From Permianibacter fluminis (GTDB taxonomy: Bacteria; Pseudomonadota; Gammaproteobacteria; Enterobacterales; Permianibacteraceae), in the NCBI RefSeq assembly GCF_013179735.1, contig NZ_JABMEG010000001.1, positions 620,001 through 684,000 on the forward strand: a DNA stretch of 64,000 nt, given 5' to 3'. The first letter of the stretch is position 1. Each line of letters begins with the position of its first letter. This document shows, piece by piece, positions 5,157-60,403 of the stretch. The translations under genes and the position numbers were made by a program. Under the pieces are notes generated by a model, which saw nothing but the letters and a program-made list of their open reading frames with translations, did no database searches and was not told the origin of the DNA.

Positions 5157-5277
5157 CTCCCCTCCTTGTCAAGGAGGGGTTGGGGGTGGTTGGTGAATTA
5201 CGCATTGCGTCATCCGAAGCGCACTTGCGCGACCGGCGCCCCCTCACCCCAACCCTCTCCTACAAGGGGAGAGGGAG
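5157..5277. repeat. C-rich palindromes between glyQ and glyS (copy B)
   Basis: Two diverged C-rich elements. One at 5157-5195 carries CCCCTCCTTGTCAAGGAGGG; one at 5239-5277 carries the CTCACCCCAACCCTCTCC type and CAAGGGGAGAGGG. They fill nearly the whole glyQ-glyS spacer. Either could act as an RNA hairpin in the glyQS transcript. Confidence 0.8.
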
Positions 5278-9798: not shown

Positions 9799-9979
9799 GT
9801 GATTGTCTTTTCTGGCGCCGGCTTTTCTGCTGTTGCCATCTCGCATTCTGCGGAGACAGCTCACCATTCAGGCTGGTCGTGTGCGGATCGCTTCTGTGCT
9901 AGGGTACGGCGGACTCGGGCGCACGGTTTTCGCCCGGCAGCGGCGGATAATCTCTGTCGCACACTTGCCAAGGATTGCC

Positions 9980-10795
9980 ATGCGCCAGCCCATGAAACCC
10001 CGACTTTGGTGTCACCTGACCGAAGAACCAAAACAGCGTTTGCCAGTACCGGATATCCGCGCCAGCAAAGCGAAGCTGGTGCGCAGCTATCCGGAGTTGG
10101 TGCAGGCAGTCGCCAAGCTGGCATTCCACAACCCGGAATACGCACTGTTTTATCGCGGCCAGTCCACTGAGCATTTCAACTCACAGCAGCAAAGTAGTTG
10201 CTATCCGACGCTGTATCGCAGCAGCAGTAACGGCCGTTTGAAAGATCGCGAGTTGCAACAACGGCTGAGCCAGCTGGAACATTATCGGACTGCCATCGCC
10301 ACCGCGTTCAAACAGGCGAAGTTGCCCGGACACGATAAGCTGGAGAAATTCCCGGAGCTGGCGTGGTCGGTGCTGCAACATTACGAGGTGTGCCCGACGC
10401 CTTTGCTCGATGTCACCCATTCGCTGCGCGTTGCCGCGTCGTTTGCCACCGGCAAGGAGCAGGATGGCATTGTCTATGTGTATGCGCTGCCACACCCGAG
10501 TGGCACGCTGACCTATTCTGCAGAAGAAGAATTGCTGATGGTGCGCCTGCTCGGCATTTGTCCGCCCGATGCCAAGCGGCCGTATTTTCAGGAAGGCTAT
10601 CTGGTCGGCTCGTTTCCAGTGGTGCGCGAACGGCGCGGTCCGCATCTCGACGTTGCGCGGCGCTTGATCGGCAAGTTCCAGTTGCGGGCAAAAGCGTTCT
10701 GGAGCGCCGACTTTCCGCGCATTCCGGTCGCAGCGCTGTATCCAGGCAAGGACAGCATTCAGCAACTGTGTGCCGGATTGTCGGCGCCGACCTGA
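9980..10795 (+). CDS. FRG-domain protein
   Basis: A 271-residue soluble protein with the FRG domain. The signature FYRGQ is at 57-61, YPTLYR at 75-80, and QHYE with PTPLLDVT at 133-146, followed by the ASFA helix. FRG domains are found alone and in toxin-like or phage-defence settings, but their biochemical activity is not established to my knowledge. The ATG at 9980 follows AAGG; an in-frame start at 9803 would overlap the upstream terminator and gives no homology-like sequence. A GNAT gene follows 90 bp downstream. No toxin or defence partner is adjacent. Role unknown. Confidence 0.75.
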   Translation: MRQPMKPRLWCHLTEEPKQRLPVPDIRASKAKLVRSYPELVQAVAKLAFHNPEYALFYRGQSTEHFNSQQQSSCYPTLYRSSSNGRLKDRELQQRLSQLEHYRTAIATAFKQAKLPGHDKLEKFPELAWSVLQHYEVCPTPLLDVTHSLRVAASFATGKEQDGIVYVYALPHPSGTLTYSAEEELLMVRLLGICPPDAKRPYFQEGYLVGSFPVVRERRGPHLDVARRLIGKFQLRAKAFWSADFPRIPVAALYPGKDSIQQLCAGLSAPT

Positions 10796-11468: not shown

Positions 11469-11530
11469 TGTAGGAGCGGCCTTGGCCGCGATAACTCGTT
11501 CGGACAATCGCGGCCAAGGCCGCTCCTACA
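11469..11530. repeat. REP-like palindrome, copy 2
   Basis: Arms TGTAGGAGCGGCCTTGGCCG (and onward) and its complement, separated by a 14-base loop. Same sequence as copy 1 at 2170 apart from the loop. It lies between the GNAT gene and ada. Confidence 0.88.
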
Positions 11531-11663
11531 AGTCCTGACTCGAGTCCCCGCCCCACGCCAATATCGTGTTCAGTTTTCGGTGGAGTCTGTTTGCCGTTGG
11601 CCGGACCATGGCGGTCGTGTTCCGTCCAACCCGACTCAGCGGTAACCCGCACGGAGGTCCGCC

Positions 11664-12810: not shown

Positions 12811-12895
12811 AAATACCCCCTCCTGACCTCCCCCTTTACAGGGGGAGGAACGGTTTTGCTCCCTCTCCTGTTAAGGGGAGGGCCGGGGTGGGGTA
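12811..12895. repeat. C-rich palindrome, inverted pair upstream of the DUF559 gene (copy C)
   Basis: Forward unit at 12811-12849 (TACCCCCTCCTGACC, CCCCCTTTACAGGGGGAGG) and an opposite-facing diverged unit at about 12859-12895 (CCCTCTCCTGTTAAGGGGAG, then GGGGTAG). It ends 49 bases before the DUF559 start codon. Confidence 0.87.
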
Positions 12896-12944
12896 GTTGC
12901 CGCTCCGCTACCGGATGCTATTTGCAAGCCATGGAGGCGAAGCA

Positions 12945-13313
12945 ATGGGTTTCACTTTCAACCGCAAATCCAGCGCAGAGTTCCGCCGCGAACTGCGCAA
13001 CAACCCGACAGCACCAGAACATCGACTTTGGCAAGCGCTGCGCGGTGAACAACTCGGCGTGAAGTTTCGCCGGCAGCACAATATGGGTTCCTACATTGTC
13101 GACTTTTACTGCGCAGAAGCCAGACTCGTTATCGAAGTAGACGGTGACAGTCATTACACCGACACCGAAGCTCGCCAGTACGACAGTGACCGCGACGCTT
13201 ATCTGGCAGAACTGGGCTTGCAGGTTGTTCGGGTCACGAATCAGGATGTCATCGATAATCTGCCCGGGGTTTTGCAACACATCGCGATAACGTTGCAATC
13301 CAAGGACTGCTGA
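12945..13313 (+). CDS. DUF559 endonuclease-like protein
   Basis: A 122-residue protein of the DUF559 family, related to the very-short-patch/PD-(D/E)xK nuclease fold. The core motif VDFYCAEARLVIEVDGDSHY occupies residues 52-71 and supplies the putative metal ligands D53, E64 and D66, with H70. The N-terminal EFRRELRNNPTAPEHRLWQAL is also typical. GGAGG precedes the ATG. The gene is bracketed on both sides by inverted pairs of the C-rich palindrome, 49 bp before and 10 bp after. No methyltransferase or restriction partner is nearby. A nuclease activity is inferred from the fold; no member's job is settled as far as I know. Confidence 0.88.
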   Translation: MGFTFNRKSSAEFRRELRNNPTAPEHRLWQALRGEQLGVKFRRQHNMGSYIVDFYCAEARLVIEVDGDSHYTDTEARQYDSDRDAYLAELGLQVVRVTNQDVIDNLPGVLQHIAITLQSKDC

Positions 13314-13323
13314 GTTCCGCGCG

Positions 13324-13398
13324 ACTACTACCTCCTCCTGACCTCCCCCTTCACAGGAGGAGGAACAGTCTTGCCCCCTCCCCCTGACAGGGGAGAGA
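13324..13398. repeat. C-rich palindrome, pair downstream of the DUF559 gene (copy D)
   Basis: Forward unit at 13324-13363 (CTACCTCCTCCTGACC, CCCCTTCACAGGAGGAGG) and a second unit at about 13373-13398 (CCCCTCCCCCTGACAGGGG). It starts 10 bases after the DUF559 stop. Confidence 0.85.
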
Positions 13399-13546: not shown

Positions 13547-15610
13547 GTGAATCTGGCATGGCCGCGCATGGCGCTGTGGGTGGTGTTGGGCTTGGTGGCG
13601 ACGGGTGGTTTGGCCACCATTGCCTTGCATCAGGGCGAGACGATCAACGCGCTGTGGCTGGTGGTGACGGCGCTGTCGGTGTACGCCATCGGTTATCGGT
13701 TTTATGCCCGCTTTATCACCGACCGCGTCTTGCAGTTGAACGATCAACGGCTGACGCCGGCGCACGTGGTCAACGACGGCAAGGATTTTGTGCCGACCCA
13801 CAAGGCGGTGCTGTTCGGTCATCACTTTGCTGCGATTGCCGGGGCCGGTCCGTTGATCGGCCCGGTGCTCGCCGCGCAGATGGGTTATCTGCCCGGCACG
13901 ATCTGGCTGGTGGTCGGCGTGGTGTTTGCCGGCGCAGTGCAGGACATGGTGGTGCTGTTTGCCTCGACGCGGCGCAACGGCAAATCGCTCGGCGACATGA
14001 TCCGTGAAGAGATCGGCACCTTTGCCGGCAAGCTGGCGATGTTCGGCATTCTCGCGATCATGATCATTCTGCTCGCCGTGCTGGCACTCGTTGTCGTGAA
14101 AGCGTTGATCGGCAGCCCCTGGGGTGTCAGCACACTGGTGCTGACCATTCCTATCGCGGTGTTCATGGGCGTGTATCTGCGTTATCTGCGGCCGGGCCGG
14201 GTCGGTGAAGTGTCGCTGATCGGCGTGGTGTTGCTGGTGCTGTCGCTGTATGCCGGGCAGGAAATCGCGCACTCACCGGCGCTGGCGGCGTGGTTTGATC
14301 TGGACGGCAAGACGCTGGCCTGGGGATTGATCGGTTATGGTTTTATCGCCTCGGTGTTGCCCGTCTGGCTGTTGCTGGCACCGCGCGATTATCTCAGCAC
14401 CTTCCTGAAAATCGGCACCATTTTTGGTTTGGCGATTGGCATTGCCATTACGCTGCCGGAATTGCACATGCCGGCGCTGACCTCGTTCACCGATGGCAGC
14501 GGTCCGGTGTTTGCCGGCAGTCTGTTTCCGTTCCTGTTTATCACCATCGCCTGCGGTACTGTGTCCGGCTTTCATGCCTTGGTGGCGTCCGGCACCACAC
14601 CCAAATTGATTGAACGCGAATCGCATATCCGGCCGATTGGTTACGGCGCCATGTTGATGGAGTCGTTCGTTGCGGTGATGGCCATGGTTGCGGCTTGCGT
14701 GCTGACACCGGGCGTTTATTTTGCACTTAACAGTCCGGCGGCGCTGATTGGCACCACGCCGGAACAGGCAGCAGCGGTCATCAACAGCTGGGGCTTTGTC
14801 ATCACACCGGATGTGCTGGTGCAGACCGCCAAGGACATTGGCGAGAGCAGTATCCTGTCGCGCGCCGGTGGCGCGCCGACGCTGGCCGTTGGCATGGCGC
14901 AGATTTTCAGCAGCGTGTTCGGCGGCCCCGCGATGATGGCGTTCTGGTATCACTTCGCCATTCTGTTTGAAGCGCTGTTCATTCTGACCACGCTTGATGC
15001 CGGTACCCGCGTCGGCCGGTTCATGATTCAGGATCTGCTTGGCCAGTACGTGCCCAAACTGGGCCACACCCATTCACTGACCGCCAATCTCGTGGCGACG
15101 TCGTTGTGTGTGTTTGGCTGGGGTTATTTCCTTTACCAAGGCGTAATTGATCCGCTCGGCGGCATCAATACGCTGTGGCCGTTGTTCGGTATCGCCAATC
15201 AGATGCTGGCGGCGATGGCGCTGCTGTTTGCCACCGTGCTGCTGGTCAAGATGCGGCGCGGTTTGCTGGTCTGGGTGACCGCACTGCCGGCGGCGTGGTT
15301 GTTGATTGTGACCCTTACGGCCAGCTGGCAAAAACTGTTTCACGACAACGTTCGCATCGGCTTTCTTTCGCACGCTGAGAAATTCCGTGCCGCGCTGGAA
15401 CGCGGCGAGATTTTGCCACCAGCGAAGTCGCTCGATGACATGAGTCGCATTGTGTTGAACGACCAGATCAACGCCGGTCTGTGCGCGCTGTTTGCGCTGA
15501 TTGTGATCGCGATGGCGGTGGTGGCCTTGCGTGCTTGCCTGCGCATCTGGCGCGGTGAAGCGCCAGCGCTGAAAGAAGCGCCGTTTCAGGCGGCGGTGAC
15601 GCAGTCGTGA
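13547..15610 (+). CDS. cstA: carbon starvation protein CstA, inner-membrane peptide/pyruvate transporter
   Basis: Polytopic inner-membrane protein of 687 residues (E. coli CstA 701). CstA-family members import pyruvate or small peptides when carbon is short. Conserved stretches include DFVPTHKAVLFGHHFAAIAG near residues 86-105, AGPLIGPVLAAQMGYLPG, and FVITPDV and LTTLDAGTR later. Translation starts at GTG 13547 behind a GGGGGA stretch. The family partner YbdD is encoded downstream, but 390 bp of tandem repeat intervenes instead of the usual short gap. The last 57 bases of the reading frame are themselves the source of the repeat. Substrate, peptide versus pyruvate, is not decided by the sequence. 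Confidence 0.96.
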   Translation: MNLAWPRMALWVVLGLVATGGLATIALHQGETINALWLVVTALSVYAIGYRFYARFITDRVLQLNDQRLTPAHVVNDGKDFVPTHKAVLFGHHFAAIAGAGPLIGPVLAAQMGYLPGTIWLVVGVVFAGAVQDMVVLFASTRRNGKSLGDMIREEIGTFAGKLAMFGILAIMIILLAVLALVVVKALIGSPWGVSTLVLTIPIAVFMGVYLRYLRPGRVGEVSLIGVVLLVLSLYAGQEIAHSPALAAWFDLDGKTLAWGLIGYGFIASVLPVWLLLAPRDYLSTFLKIGTIFGLAIGIAITLPELHMPALTSFTDGSGPVFAGSLFPFLFITIACGTVSGFHALVASGTTPKLIERESHIRPIGYGAMLMESFVAVMAMVAACVLTPGVYFALNSPAALIGTTPEQAAAVINSWGFVITPDVLVQTAKDIGESSILSRAGGAPTLAVGMAQIFSSVFGGPAMMAFWYHFAILFEALFILTTLDAGTRVGRFMIQDLLGQYVPKLGHTHSLTANLVATSLCVFGWGYFLYQGVIDPLGGINTLWPLFGIANQMLAAMALLFATVLLVKMRRGLLVWVTALPAAWLLIVTLTASWQKLFHDNVRIGFLSHAEKFRAALERGEILPPAKSLDDMSRIVLNDQINAGLCALFALIVIAMAVVALRACLRIWRGEAPALKEAPFQAAVTQS

Positions 15611-15630
15611 TGCAGTCATGAGGAGGAGCG

Positions 15631-15922
15631 GCAACTACCCCCTCCCGGCCTCCCCCTTCACAGGGGGAGGAGCGAAAGACTTCCGTCGCAAGGAAAGCGC
15701 CGGTGTTGAACGAAGCGTCGTTTCTGGCGGCGGTGACGCAGTCGTGATGCGGGGCGGCAACTACCCCCTCCCGGCCTCCCCCTTCACAGGGGGAGGAGCG
15801 AAAGACTTCCGTCGCAAGGAAAGCGCCGGCGCTGAAAGAAGCACTGCTTCAGGCAGCGGTGACGCAATCGTGATTCGGGGCGGCAACTACCCCCTCCCGG
15901 CCTCCCCCTTCACAGGGGGAGG
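15631..15922. repeat. 126-bp tandem repeat, three C-rich palindromes carrying copies of the cstA 3' end
   Basis: The C-rich element starts at 15631, 15757 and 15883, an exact 126-bp period. Between copies there are diverged duplicates of the last codons and stop of cstA: 15694-15750 and 15820-15876 align with cstA 15557-15613. Because 126 is a multiple of three, one frame stays open from 15618 to 15950; I regard that as a by-product of the repeat. The remaining intergenic sequence to 16000 holds only the ybdD ribosome site. Confidence 0.92.
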
Positions 15923-16000
15923 TGCAAAGAACTCCCGAGACAAGGAATGAGGTGGAGTAAGTGCCGCGCCCCACCACAAACGATAAGCAGGAGCTGATTC

Positions 16001-60133: not shown

Positions 60134-60165
60134 CGGCACTCCTTTCCGTCGTCGAATGGTTCGGC

Positions 60166-60403
60166 GTGGGAGCGGCGCTCGCCGCGATGTTTTACTGTTG
60201 TCACAGCATAGCGCGTGTGGGTCTTATCGCGGGTAAGGTCGCTCTCACACAGGTAATGCCGCGCAGTTGGGAAATTATCTGTCACCGCCGCCTATGCGGG
60301 AAAAGCAGTTTTGCTTAGCGGATCGGCATTGCTCCCACGCGGGCTGCTTTTTCTGTCGCCATTTGCGGATTGCTATCGCGGGCAAGCTCGCTCCTACCAA
60401 CAA
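60166..60403. repeat. degenerate REP-like repeats in the glpK upstream region
   Basis: GTGGGAGCGGCGCTCGCCGC at 60166-60189 and a matching ATCGCGGGTAAGGTCGCTC at 60226-60250 form an imperfect hairpin. A half-element ATCGCGGGCAAGCTCGCTCC ends near 60402. These look like older relatives of the REP copies at 2170 and 11469. The glpK promoter must lie inside or around them. The 320-bp gap to the crotonase gene has no other feature that I can support. Confidence 0.75.

Follow-up and report, generated by a model that had tools for sequence, protein, structure and literature searches.

The repeats known as PIT or TM elements have, as far as we are aware, lacked both a known mobiliser and a known source, and the PIT elements are reportedly the subject of papers of their own by Hoyne and Maher. 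The TM elements of E. coli follow the consensus CCCTCNCCC N3-6 GGGNGAGGG N3 GGGNGAGGG, and five inverted pairs occur among the 23 elements (Holder et al., 2015; PMC4666352). As far as the accessible part of that paper goes, in the text of which the name PIT is also used, a TM oligonucleotide forms a triplex in vitro, a stable triplex in vivo is unsupported, and the elements are linked neither to transposons, phages or plasmids nor to any function shared by their flanking genes (PMC4666352). In a second group of systems, REP/RAYT (the REPtron) and the REPINs, a gene is located between a palindrome and an inverted palindrome, and many short gene-less pairs are present, according to the available portions of the sources (PMC3733652, PMC8266576).

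The window, i.e. the whole stretch of 64,000 nucleotides analysed here, contains a gene for a PD-(D/E)xK nuclease of the DUF559 family, which is located between C-rich palindromes (Table 1). The gene was originally predicted to encode a 122-residue DUF559 protein with the core residues D53, E64, and D66 and to be bracketed by two inverted palindrome pairs at gaps of 49 and 10 bp. The Pfam match and the translation confirmed the gene, the three core residues are invariant in an alignment of 63 proteins, and both gaps match the sequence. The bracketing held for the upstream pair; the downstream pair is half decayed, consisting of a one-mismatch unit and a degenerate hairpin. Further copies of the C-rich element were correctly anticipated in the window and comprise two dispersed inverted pairs and a tandem trio. 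The order observed at the gene is hairpin-tail-DUF559-tail-hairpin, in which the tails of both inner units point to the gene. In matches of the covariance model R1 (described below), the tails of the 2806/2866 and 12815/12861 pairs point outward and those of the 5159/5241 pair inward; the coexistence of the two orders is unexplained. The results below suggest that DUF559 is probably the missing engine that spreads triplex palindromes; cutting and spreading are inferred, without biochemistry and without exact junctions.

Table 1 Coordinates of the DUF559 gene, the surrounding palindromes, and loci sharing one insertion site.
Feature	Position or locus	Strand	Evidence
DUF559 (PF04480) PD-(D/E)xK nuclease gene, 122 aa	12945..13313	+	Pfam E 6.4e-32, translation
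Triplex-type palindrome unit 1, tail on outer (left) side, perfect hairpin 12827-12848	12815..12848	-	R1 31.1 bits
Triplex-type palindrome unit 2, imperfect hairpin, gene-facing tail	12861..12894	+	R1 29.7 bits
Triplex-type palindrome unit 3, gene-facing tail, outer hairpin with one mismatch	13330..13363	-	R1 23.7 bits; one-mismatch pattern match
Degenerate fourth hairpin, no clear tail	~13374..13398	.	3-mismatch pattern match G000:C1:633377-633398
Dispersed inverted pair, same palindrome, tails outward	2806-2839 and 2866-2899	- and +	R1; repeat family D1
Dispersed inverted pair, related palindrome, tails inward	5159-5191 and 5241-5275	+ and -	R1
Three more palindrome units in 126-bp tandem repeat	15637..15922 (at 15637, 15763, 15889)	-	R1; repeat families D1, D3
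Same flanking gene pair around DUF559 (Polaromonas, Comamonas, Ramlibacter, a Comamonadaceae MAG)	L074, L083, L090, L093		

Each palindrome unit is composed of a C-rich hairpin with a short loop, a short linker, and a G-rich tail. The linker is 3 nt in 61 of 76 units, 2 nt in 10, and 4 nt in 5; YYR is present at the hairpin foot in 59 of the 76 and GTAG near the foot in two. The alignment included 62 of these units; for R1, the training set comprised 20 of the 23 units that are 33 nt long. A search of Rfam returned five matches, none of which was close to the gathering score. The tail was found to be a mirror of the purine arm, with a score of 0.870 compared with 0.725 ± 0.011 after shuffling and none of 1000 shuffles equal to it (92 asymmetric units, drawn from 113 distinct ones that had been chosen for a G-rich tail). 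A direct-copy relationship was rejected as far weaker (0.742 against 0.720 shuffled, equalled by 16 of 1000). In the mirror pairing, a stem A is opposite A in 85 cases, T in 79, G in 14, and C in 11 (T at 79 of 189 A positions), and G is opposite G in 519 of 587. By established triplex rules, a T opposite A suits an antiparallel purine-motif third strand more than a pyrimidine-motif one, and the frequent T facing A thus fits the former better. Judged by its sequence, the C-rich hairpin with a G-rich mirror tail is the “intrastrand triplex” design of the PIT/TM elements, of which the E. coli TM consensus is one subtype; triplex formation itself has been demonstrated for the E. coli oligonucleotide and not for the subtype of the window. 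A second class of units, with a small extra hairpin between the arm and the tail, was observed in 10 of 69 loci, from Sphingomonadaceae, Caulobacteraceae, and Clostridia.

The window-type palindrome exceeds chance in the host genome (4.36 Mb, 5 contigs), because it is present at 47 places when up to 3 mismatches are allowed and the reversed control pattern at none. The same genome contains four DUF559 genes, all of which have C-rich hairpins on both sides; the hairpin sequences differ among the four genes, and those of L002 and L003 are similar. In the window, directly past cstA, a 126-bp unit is repeated three times in tandem (15607-15984) with one triplex-type palindrome per copy, and a repetitive open frame of 110 aa in the array (15618-15950) has no Pfam match. 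Comparison of the ada-cstA region with a genome of the same genus (G001) matched pieces of ada and one palindrome, but not cstA, and could therefore not be used. An FRG-domain protein is encoded at 9803-10795, and its neighbours are a GNAT acetyltransferase and Ada. Inverted pairs of another palindrome (TTGTAGGAGCGGCCTTGGCCGCGAT and relatives) are located at 2170-2235, 11469-11531, and 60165-60399. These pairs look like the GTAG-tagged, RAYT-type REP class, and two palindrome systems thus seem to coexist in this genome. The DUF559 open frames of L001, L003, L178, and L180 continue into the adjoining palindrome, which results in ends rich in proline and glycine, e.g. LTPTPLPVGEGS.

An AlphaFold2 model of the window protein (63 sequences) had a mean pLDDT of 83.9 and a pTM of 0.77. 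Its best matches in the PDB were 3hrl, a putative endonuclease-like protein, and the catalytic domain of I-Bth0305I (Foldseek E 7.9e-5), with Vsr matching more weakly. A profile search also indicated 3hrl (E 4.3e-35) and I-Bth0305I (E 3.8e-5); rows for the cholera and heat-labile toxin B subunits in this search (E 0.11 and above) were discarded as noise. In addition to the core residues, E25, W29, Q44, G67, H70, and R96 are invariant in the 63-protein alignment. The Vsr family profile TIGR00632 was not reached, at 16.6 bits compared with a cut-off of 97.85. Within the accessible parts of the respective papers, the E. coli DUF559 protein YcjD was tied to Vsr by profile in 2005 (PMC1189080), and the DUF559 protein VsrA of Caulobacter is described as an endonuclease that resembles Vsr, is induced by DNA damage, and is needed for the DNA damage response in cells without a cytosine methyltransferase (PMC12907096).

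The association of DUF559 genes with C-rich palindromes in other genomes, which was part of the original prediction, was supported by counts at DUF559 loci and at 655 mechanically called ORFs from the same loci as a control. The DUF559 loci were the best 80 of 506 relatives, fetched from named genomes by protein similarity alone, to which the four of the host genome and loci of its relatives were added. They are not a random sample and contain near-duplicates (e.g. L072/L098 and L049/L076); the enrichment counts omit 8 of 87 loci for which 300 bp were not available on both sides, and the short locus L101 was left out of all counts. With the looser criterion, a hairpin was observed within 300 bp in 66 of 79 DUF559 loci and on both sides in 45, compared with 46 and 2 of the 655 control ORFs. 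The strict pyrimidine-arm criterion gave 58 of 79 loci on any side and 38 on both sides (control ORFs, 38/655 and 3/655), and hairpins of the opposite sense, with the G-rich arm first, were present at none of the 79 loci and at 4 of the 655 control ORFs under the same criterion. Matching arms on both sides, for hairpins of any composition, were found in 40/79 DUF559 loci and 1/655 control ORFs. For six of the 13 loci missed by the looser criterion (L034, L041, L047, L064, L086, and L097), the covariance model matches within approximately 150 bp of the gene. A search of 114 genomes of the class detected 11 Vsr genes in 10 genomes. None of these genes had a C-rich hairpin, with the reservation that two of the loci are truncated at contig ends and could not be placed properly.

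Palindrome subtype and DUF559 subtype follow each other in the comparison that the original prediction had proposed. Among hairpins more than 1 kb away from DUF559, 25 of 81 (31 loci) share the arm linked to the local DUF559 gene, identical over eight bases, compared with a mean of 3.4 over 300 shuffles, in which the highest count was 10. Across 69 loci of 17 phyla, arm similarity increases with DUF559 identity (rho 0.276, 2346 pairs, 0/999 permutations), and likewise among cross-phylum pairs only (rho 0.234, 1818 pairs, 0/999 permutations). The phyla were taken from record titles, except for seven loci that were assigned to Pseudomonadota by hand. On the DUF559 tree, the two tail classes require 4 changes, compared with a mean of 9.4 and a minimum of 7 in 300 shuffles. 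The resolution of this tree is weak (12 starred among 82 inner branches); the class count leaves out 8 of the 69 loci, in which the tail class was unclear, and L028 and L051, which contain stop codons, were excluded from the protein tree and the alignment.

Empty and alternative alleles were observed at an insertion site in Variovorax that adjoins a stop codon (CGCAACTGA in the query), and these support the predicted insertable, mobile unit. Among the 31 genomes of Variovorax and its genus group examined, 13 have a full-length match to the 2.3-kb site query, and in others the match is split into two close flanks. Empty alleles (12 sequences from 11 genomes) lack a palindrome and have a short gap between the genes. 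In place of the common cassette (b), three genomes (G104, G122, and G097) hold an alternative one (c) with a different DUF559 and a different palindrome (CCCTCTCCCGC type); DUF559-b and DUF559-c are identical at 49 of 101 aligned positions. Regular expressions detected both palindromes at 12 of 13 b-type loci (L155 had only one) and at 3/3 c-type loci, and at 0/13 fetched loci without DUF559. Genomes with allele b, with allele c, and with neither are intermixed on the flank tree, which requires 8 changes. The b cassette occupies this site in five Comamonadaceae loci, and the flanking gene pair is shared by the four loci listed in Table 1, which suggests that the cassette is old and has a long vertical descent. 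By eye, L176 and L177 (G109 and G105) carry another short hairpin-bearing insert at this site, and the site may thus be a hot spot for palindromic inserts. Three residues are missing from the DUF559-c of L179 (G122), among them the Asp conserved in all 63 homologues; this genome has 23 copies of palindrome b and 12 of palindrome c, and its cassette is perhaps recently dead.

Two different cassettes at one site, the empty alleles of relatives, and the interleaving on the flank tree would also be expected from a homing-type nuclease, which is the main rival to the reading as a mobile cassette. Such an enzyme would cut the empty allele or a palindrome site elsewhere, the cassette would be copied by double-strand-break repair, and the palindromes would mainly be ends or landing sites that spread as a by-product. 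The fold also speaks for this, as the nearest characterised structure, I-Bth0305I, is a homing endonuclease. We nevertheless consider homing rather unlikely, because simple homing does not explain the many gene-less two-ended units described next; in addition, no intron or intein was noticed at the DUF559 loci, for which no dedicated search was made.

One Variovorax-group genome, G102, contains 32 exact copies of the palindrome-b hairpin, and 20 regions spanning 21 of them were sampled; G109, which is sister to this genome on the flank tree, has none. All 20 look two-ended in a loose match with four errors allowed, and a stricter pattern detected both ends in 14 of 19. The gene-less unit is approximately 90-110 bp long and consists of a TTGCT-like pentamer, the CCTTCCCCC hairpin, an inward tail, a spacer, a second inward tail, and a CCCTCCCCC-type hairpin. 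Conservation of the units ends about five bases beyond the left hairpin. The right arm of the gene-less units is CCCTCCCCC, and the b cassette has CCTTCCCCC at both ends. No target-site duplication was detected in the 14 of 19 units that could be scored, where shared flanking words were not in excess (110 of 500 shuffles reached the observed mean).

The presence of the palindrome among genomes also covaries with the presence of DUF559, in agreement with the original prediction. In 59 genomes of the order, comprising the host genome, its genus and family, and others, all five with a full-length DUF559 have R1 matches (11-93 each), compared with four (1-11 matches) of the other 54, fifty of which have none (Fisher p 2.5e-5). 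The five carriers belong to three families and include the genome of the window, one of the 20 training units of R1 derives from G010, and four weak PF04480 hits within open frames of 987-1949 aa were not scored as DUF559 genes. Of the genomes that supplied the 80 DUF559 loci, 35 were scanned, and 30 of these have R1 matches and five have none. The R1 counts are lower bounds, with at most 120 or 150 candidates scored per genome, and R1 was trained on units of some of these genomes. Among the 31 genomes of the Variovorax group, 16/16 with a full-length DUF559 (E 4e-22 or better) carry 4-40 exact CCTTCCCCCNNNGGGGGAAGG copies; in most b carriers, two of these copies lie within the cassette. Among the 15 genomes that lack DUF559, 12 have no palindrome b and three have 1, 3, and 5 copies (Fisher p 3.2e-6); the reversed control of palindrome b gave zero in all 31 genomes. 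Partial, weaker PF04480 matches in G099, G101, G106, G108, and G115 were counted as DUF559-less. Within the 16 genes, the match of G096 is short and that of G122 is the incomplete gene mentioned above, and not all 16 need be active. DUF559 presence changes five times on the flank-gene tree of 29 genomes, from which G111 and G115 were left out as the site was not found. This tree provides only four supported independent contrasts, of which three agree, none opposes, and one is neutral (p 0.25), too few for significance. The direction of causation behind the covariation is inferred.

The pairing is not exclusive. DUF559-free genomes with equally many copies and no sign of co-variation would have refuted the original prediction, and this condition was fulfilled in part, as G026, G034, G047, G039, G106, G111, and G115 carry copies without a full-length DUF559. 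Three genomes of the order (G026, G034, and G047) have 6-11 triplex-type palindromes and no DUF559 match; either the gene was lost or another mobiliser acts there. A strict pairing of palindrome c with DUF559-c was rejected, since palindrome c is frequent without this gene (42 copies in G110, 10 in G111, and 7 in G101; c versus b carriers, p 0.28). The three DUF559-c carriers hold 10-23 copies of palindrome b without DUF559-b.

Palindromes without DUF559, or with a damaged one, are what would be seen if the protein were a passenger or host repair enzyme that tolerates, trims or resolves triplexes and hairpins in Vsr-like housekeeping, something else spreading the palindromes. The Vsr-like, DNA-damage-induced activity described for Caulobacter VsrA in the available part of its report (PMC12907096) points in the same direction. 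This explanation appears improbable to us: the matched arms on both sides of the gene and the cross-phylum matching of subtypes are expected of an element and its enzyme. Nor does a RAYT qualify as the hidden mobiliser, a candidate that was rejected: one Y1_Tnp gene (the Pfam family of RAYTs) is present in 29 of the 31 Variovorax-group genomes whatever their palindrome count. That the palindromes are terminators or regulators of DUF559 and other genes rather than mobile DNA is disfavoured and very hard to sustain, since their strong hairpins near gene ends are outweighed by the dispersed two-ended units with a fixed left edge, by the empty alleles, and by the lack of promoter or terminator activity of PIT motifs in earlier work, as far as the accessible text reports it (PMC4666352).

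In E. coli K-12, TM element no. 9 in the table of Holder et al. (1351205-1351239) is located 167 bp from the 3' end of ycjD (1351407), which is annotated as a DUF559 protein gene. One clear TM is present, on one side only, and the cassette looks decayed. The ycjD query was found, over at least 80% of its length, in 3333 of 5426 E. coli genomes. Three strains lacking ycjD offered no clean empty site; the position is taken by efflux genes and a TetR regulator, a description also given in the part of PMC12817139 that is accessible. The TM loci are polymorphic among the 5,426 genomes. At hrpB-mrcB, K-12 has a hairpin-tail-spacer-tail-hairpin, three strains have a short empty-looking site, and one strain has a single collapsed hairpin; collapsed alleles were also observed at alx-sstT. 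At fepB-entC, 186 bp reaching past the element into the flanks are absent in 3/3 strains compared, and because this gap extends beyond the element, deletion is as good a reading as insertion. Exact element junctions were sought at these three loci, and no clean edge was found.

With moderate confidence, we favour the explanation that the gene and its palindromes are one mobile cassette, in which DUF559 recognises the ends and nicks or cuts them, the host copies the unit, and the short units are derivatives. The proposed cassette would have the order hairpin-tail, DUF559, tail-hairpin, and its ends would be the intrastrand-triplex palindromes of the PIT/TM type, in which the purine arm is followed, after a linker of 2-4 nt, by a G-rich tail able to fold back antiparallel as the third strand. 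The nuclease, with its Vsr/I-Bth0305I-like PD-(D/E)xK fold, would most likely recognise the ends in an extruded or single-stranded state during replication or repair. It would then nick or cut there, after which the strand-exchange and repair machinery of the host may insert copies of the unit elsewhere. The short hairpin-tail-spacer-tail-hairpin units of the same genomes would be non-autonomous, REPIN-like derivatives. The data directly show the anatomy, the association with the gene, the covariation of presence and of subtype, the empty and alternative alleles, and the fold; binding or recognition of a triplex or hairpin, the cutting, any role of a triplex, and the copying route are all inferred. 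We know of no strand-transfer activity for a lone nuclease domain, and this, together with the absence of cleavage and binding data, counts against the cassette model. Also counted against it are the outward tails at 2806/2866 and 12815/12861, the palindromes without a full-length DUF559, and the differing right arm of the gene-less units. The same holds for the frequent palindrome c without DUF559-c, the five DUF559 genomes without R1 matches, the doubtful genes of G122 and G096, the small number of supported contrasts, the undetected target-site duplication, the gap at fepB-entC that does not end at the element edge, and the long vertical descent suggested for the b cassette. A wider claim, which we put forward only tentatively and rate at somewhat below an even chance, is that these cassettes constitute a new class of mobile elements in many phyla, with single-strand-triplex ends and DUF559 as the sole enzyme, which reads its own stem-and-tail subtype, and that the PIT/TM repeats, including those of E. 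coli, are non-autonomous offspring.

The link between DUF559 and palindromes reaches far beyond the window, to bacteria of many phyla. As a gene that co-occurs with PIT/TM repeats, matches their subtype, and is located between their ends, DUF559 opens the question of their spread to tests in soil bacteria and E. coli K-12. If the proposal is true, it would point to a function for DUF559 and YcjD, and to a natural setting where an intrastrand DNA triplex could be a recognised substrate. In a literature search, mostly without subscription papers and preprints, none of the titles listed joins DUF559 to triplex palindromes, and an unseen report is possible. Two papers that mention both DUF559 and palindromes look unrelated, judged by their titles and the opening of their abstracts; in a term search of RepRanger 2025 (PMC12306157), “triplex” and “DUF” were both absent.

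Compared with known systems, the palindromes share their hairpin-plus-mirror-tail design with the PIT/TM elements, which form inverted pairs in E. coli as well. The PIT/TM elements are without a link to mobile elements or a shared flanking function in the accessible part of their description (PMC4666352), whereas here DUF559 is linked to the palindromes in many phyla, and a unit with two ends is described for Variovorax. The gene of E. coli YcjD is likewise a DUF559 gene adjoining a TM element, and differs in having one clear TM on a single side. The catalytic fold is shared with the homing endonuclease I-Bth0305I, but DUF559 is here free-standing between palindromes. The fold is also shared with Vsr and Caulobacter VsrA, the latter having a DUF559 domain itself according to the available part of its report (PMC12907096); Vsr genes differ in lacking adjoining C-rich hairpins (0/11, two of them on cut loci), and the score of the Vsr profile is far below its cut-off. 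The likeness to REP/RAYT and the REPINs suggested by the original prediction stands for the arrangement, which is the same, and not for descent. The REP/RAYT enzyme is a Y1 HUH transposase, in contrast to the PD-(D/E)xK protein found here, whose model matches Vsr-type nucleases; REP palindromes have GTAG at the foot, which is present in only 2/76 units here, the ends being triplex-type; and the Y1_Tnp gene does not covary with the triplex palindromes in Variovorax. If the proposal is true, DUF559 would do for its palindromes what RAYTs are presumed to do for REPs, as a second and unrelated solution.
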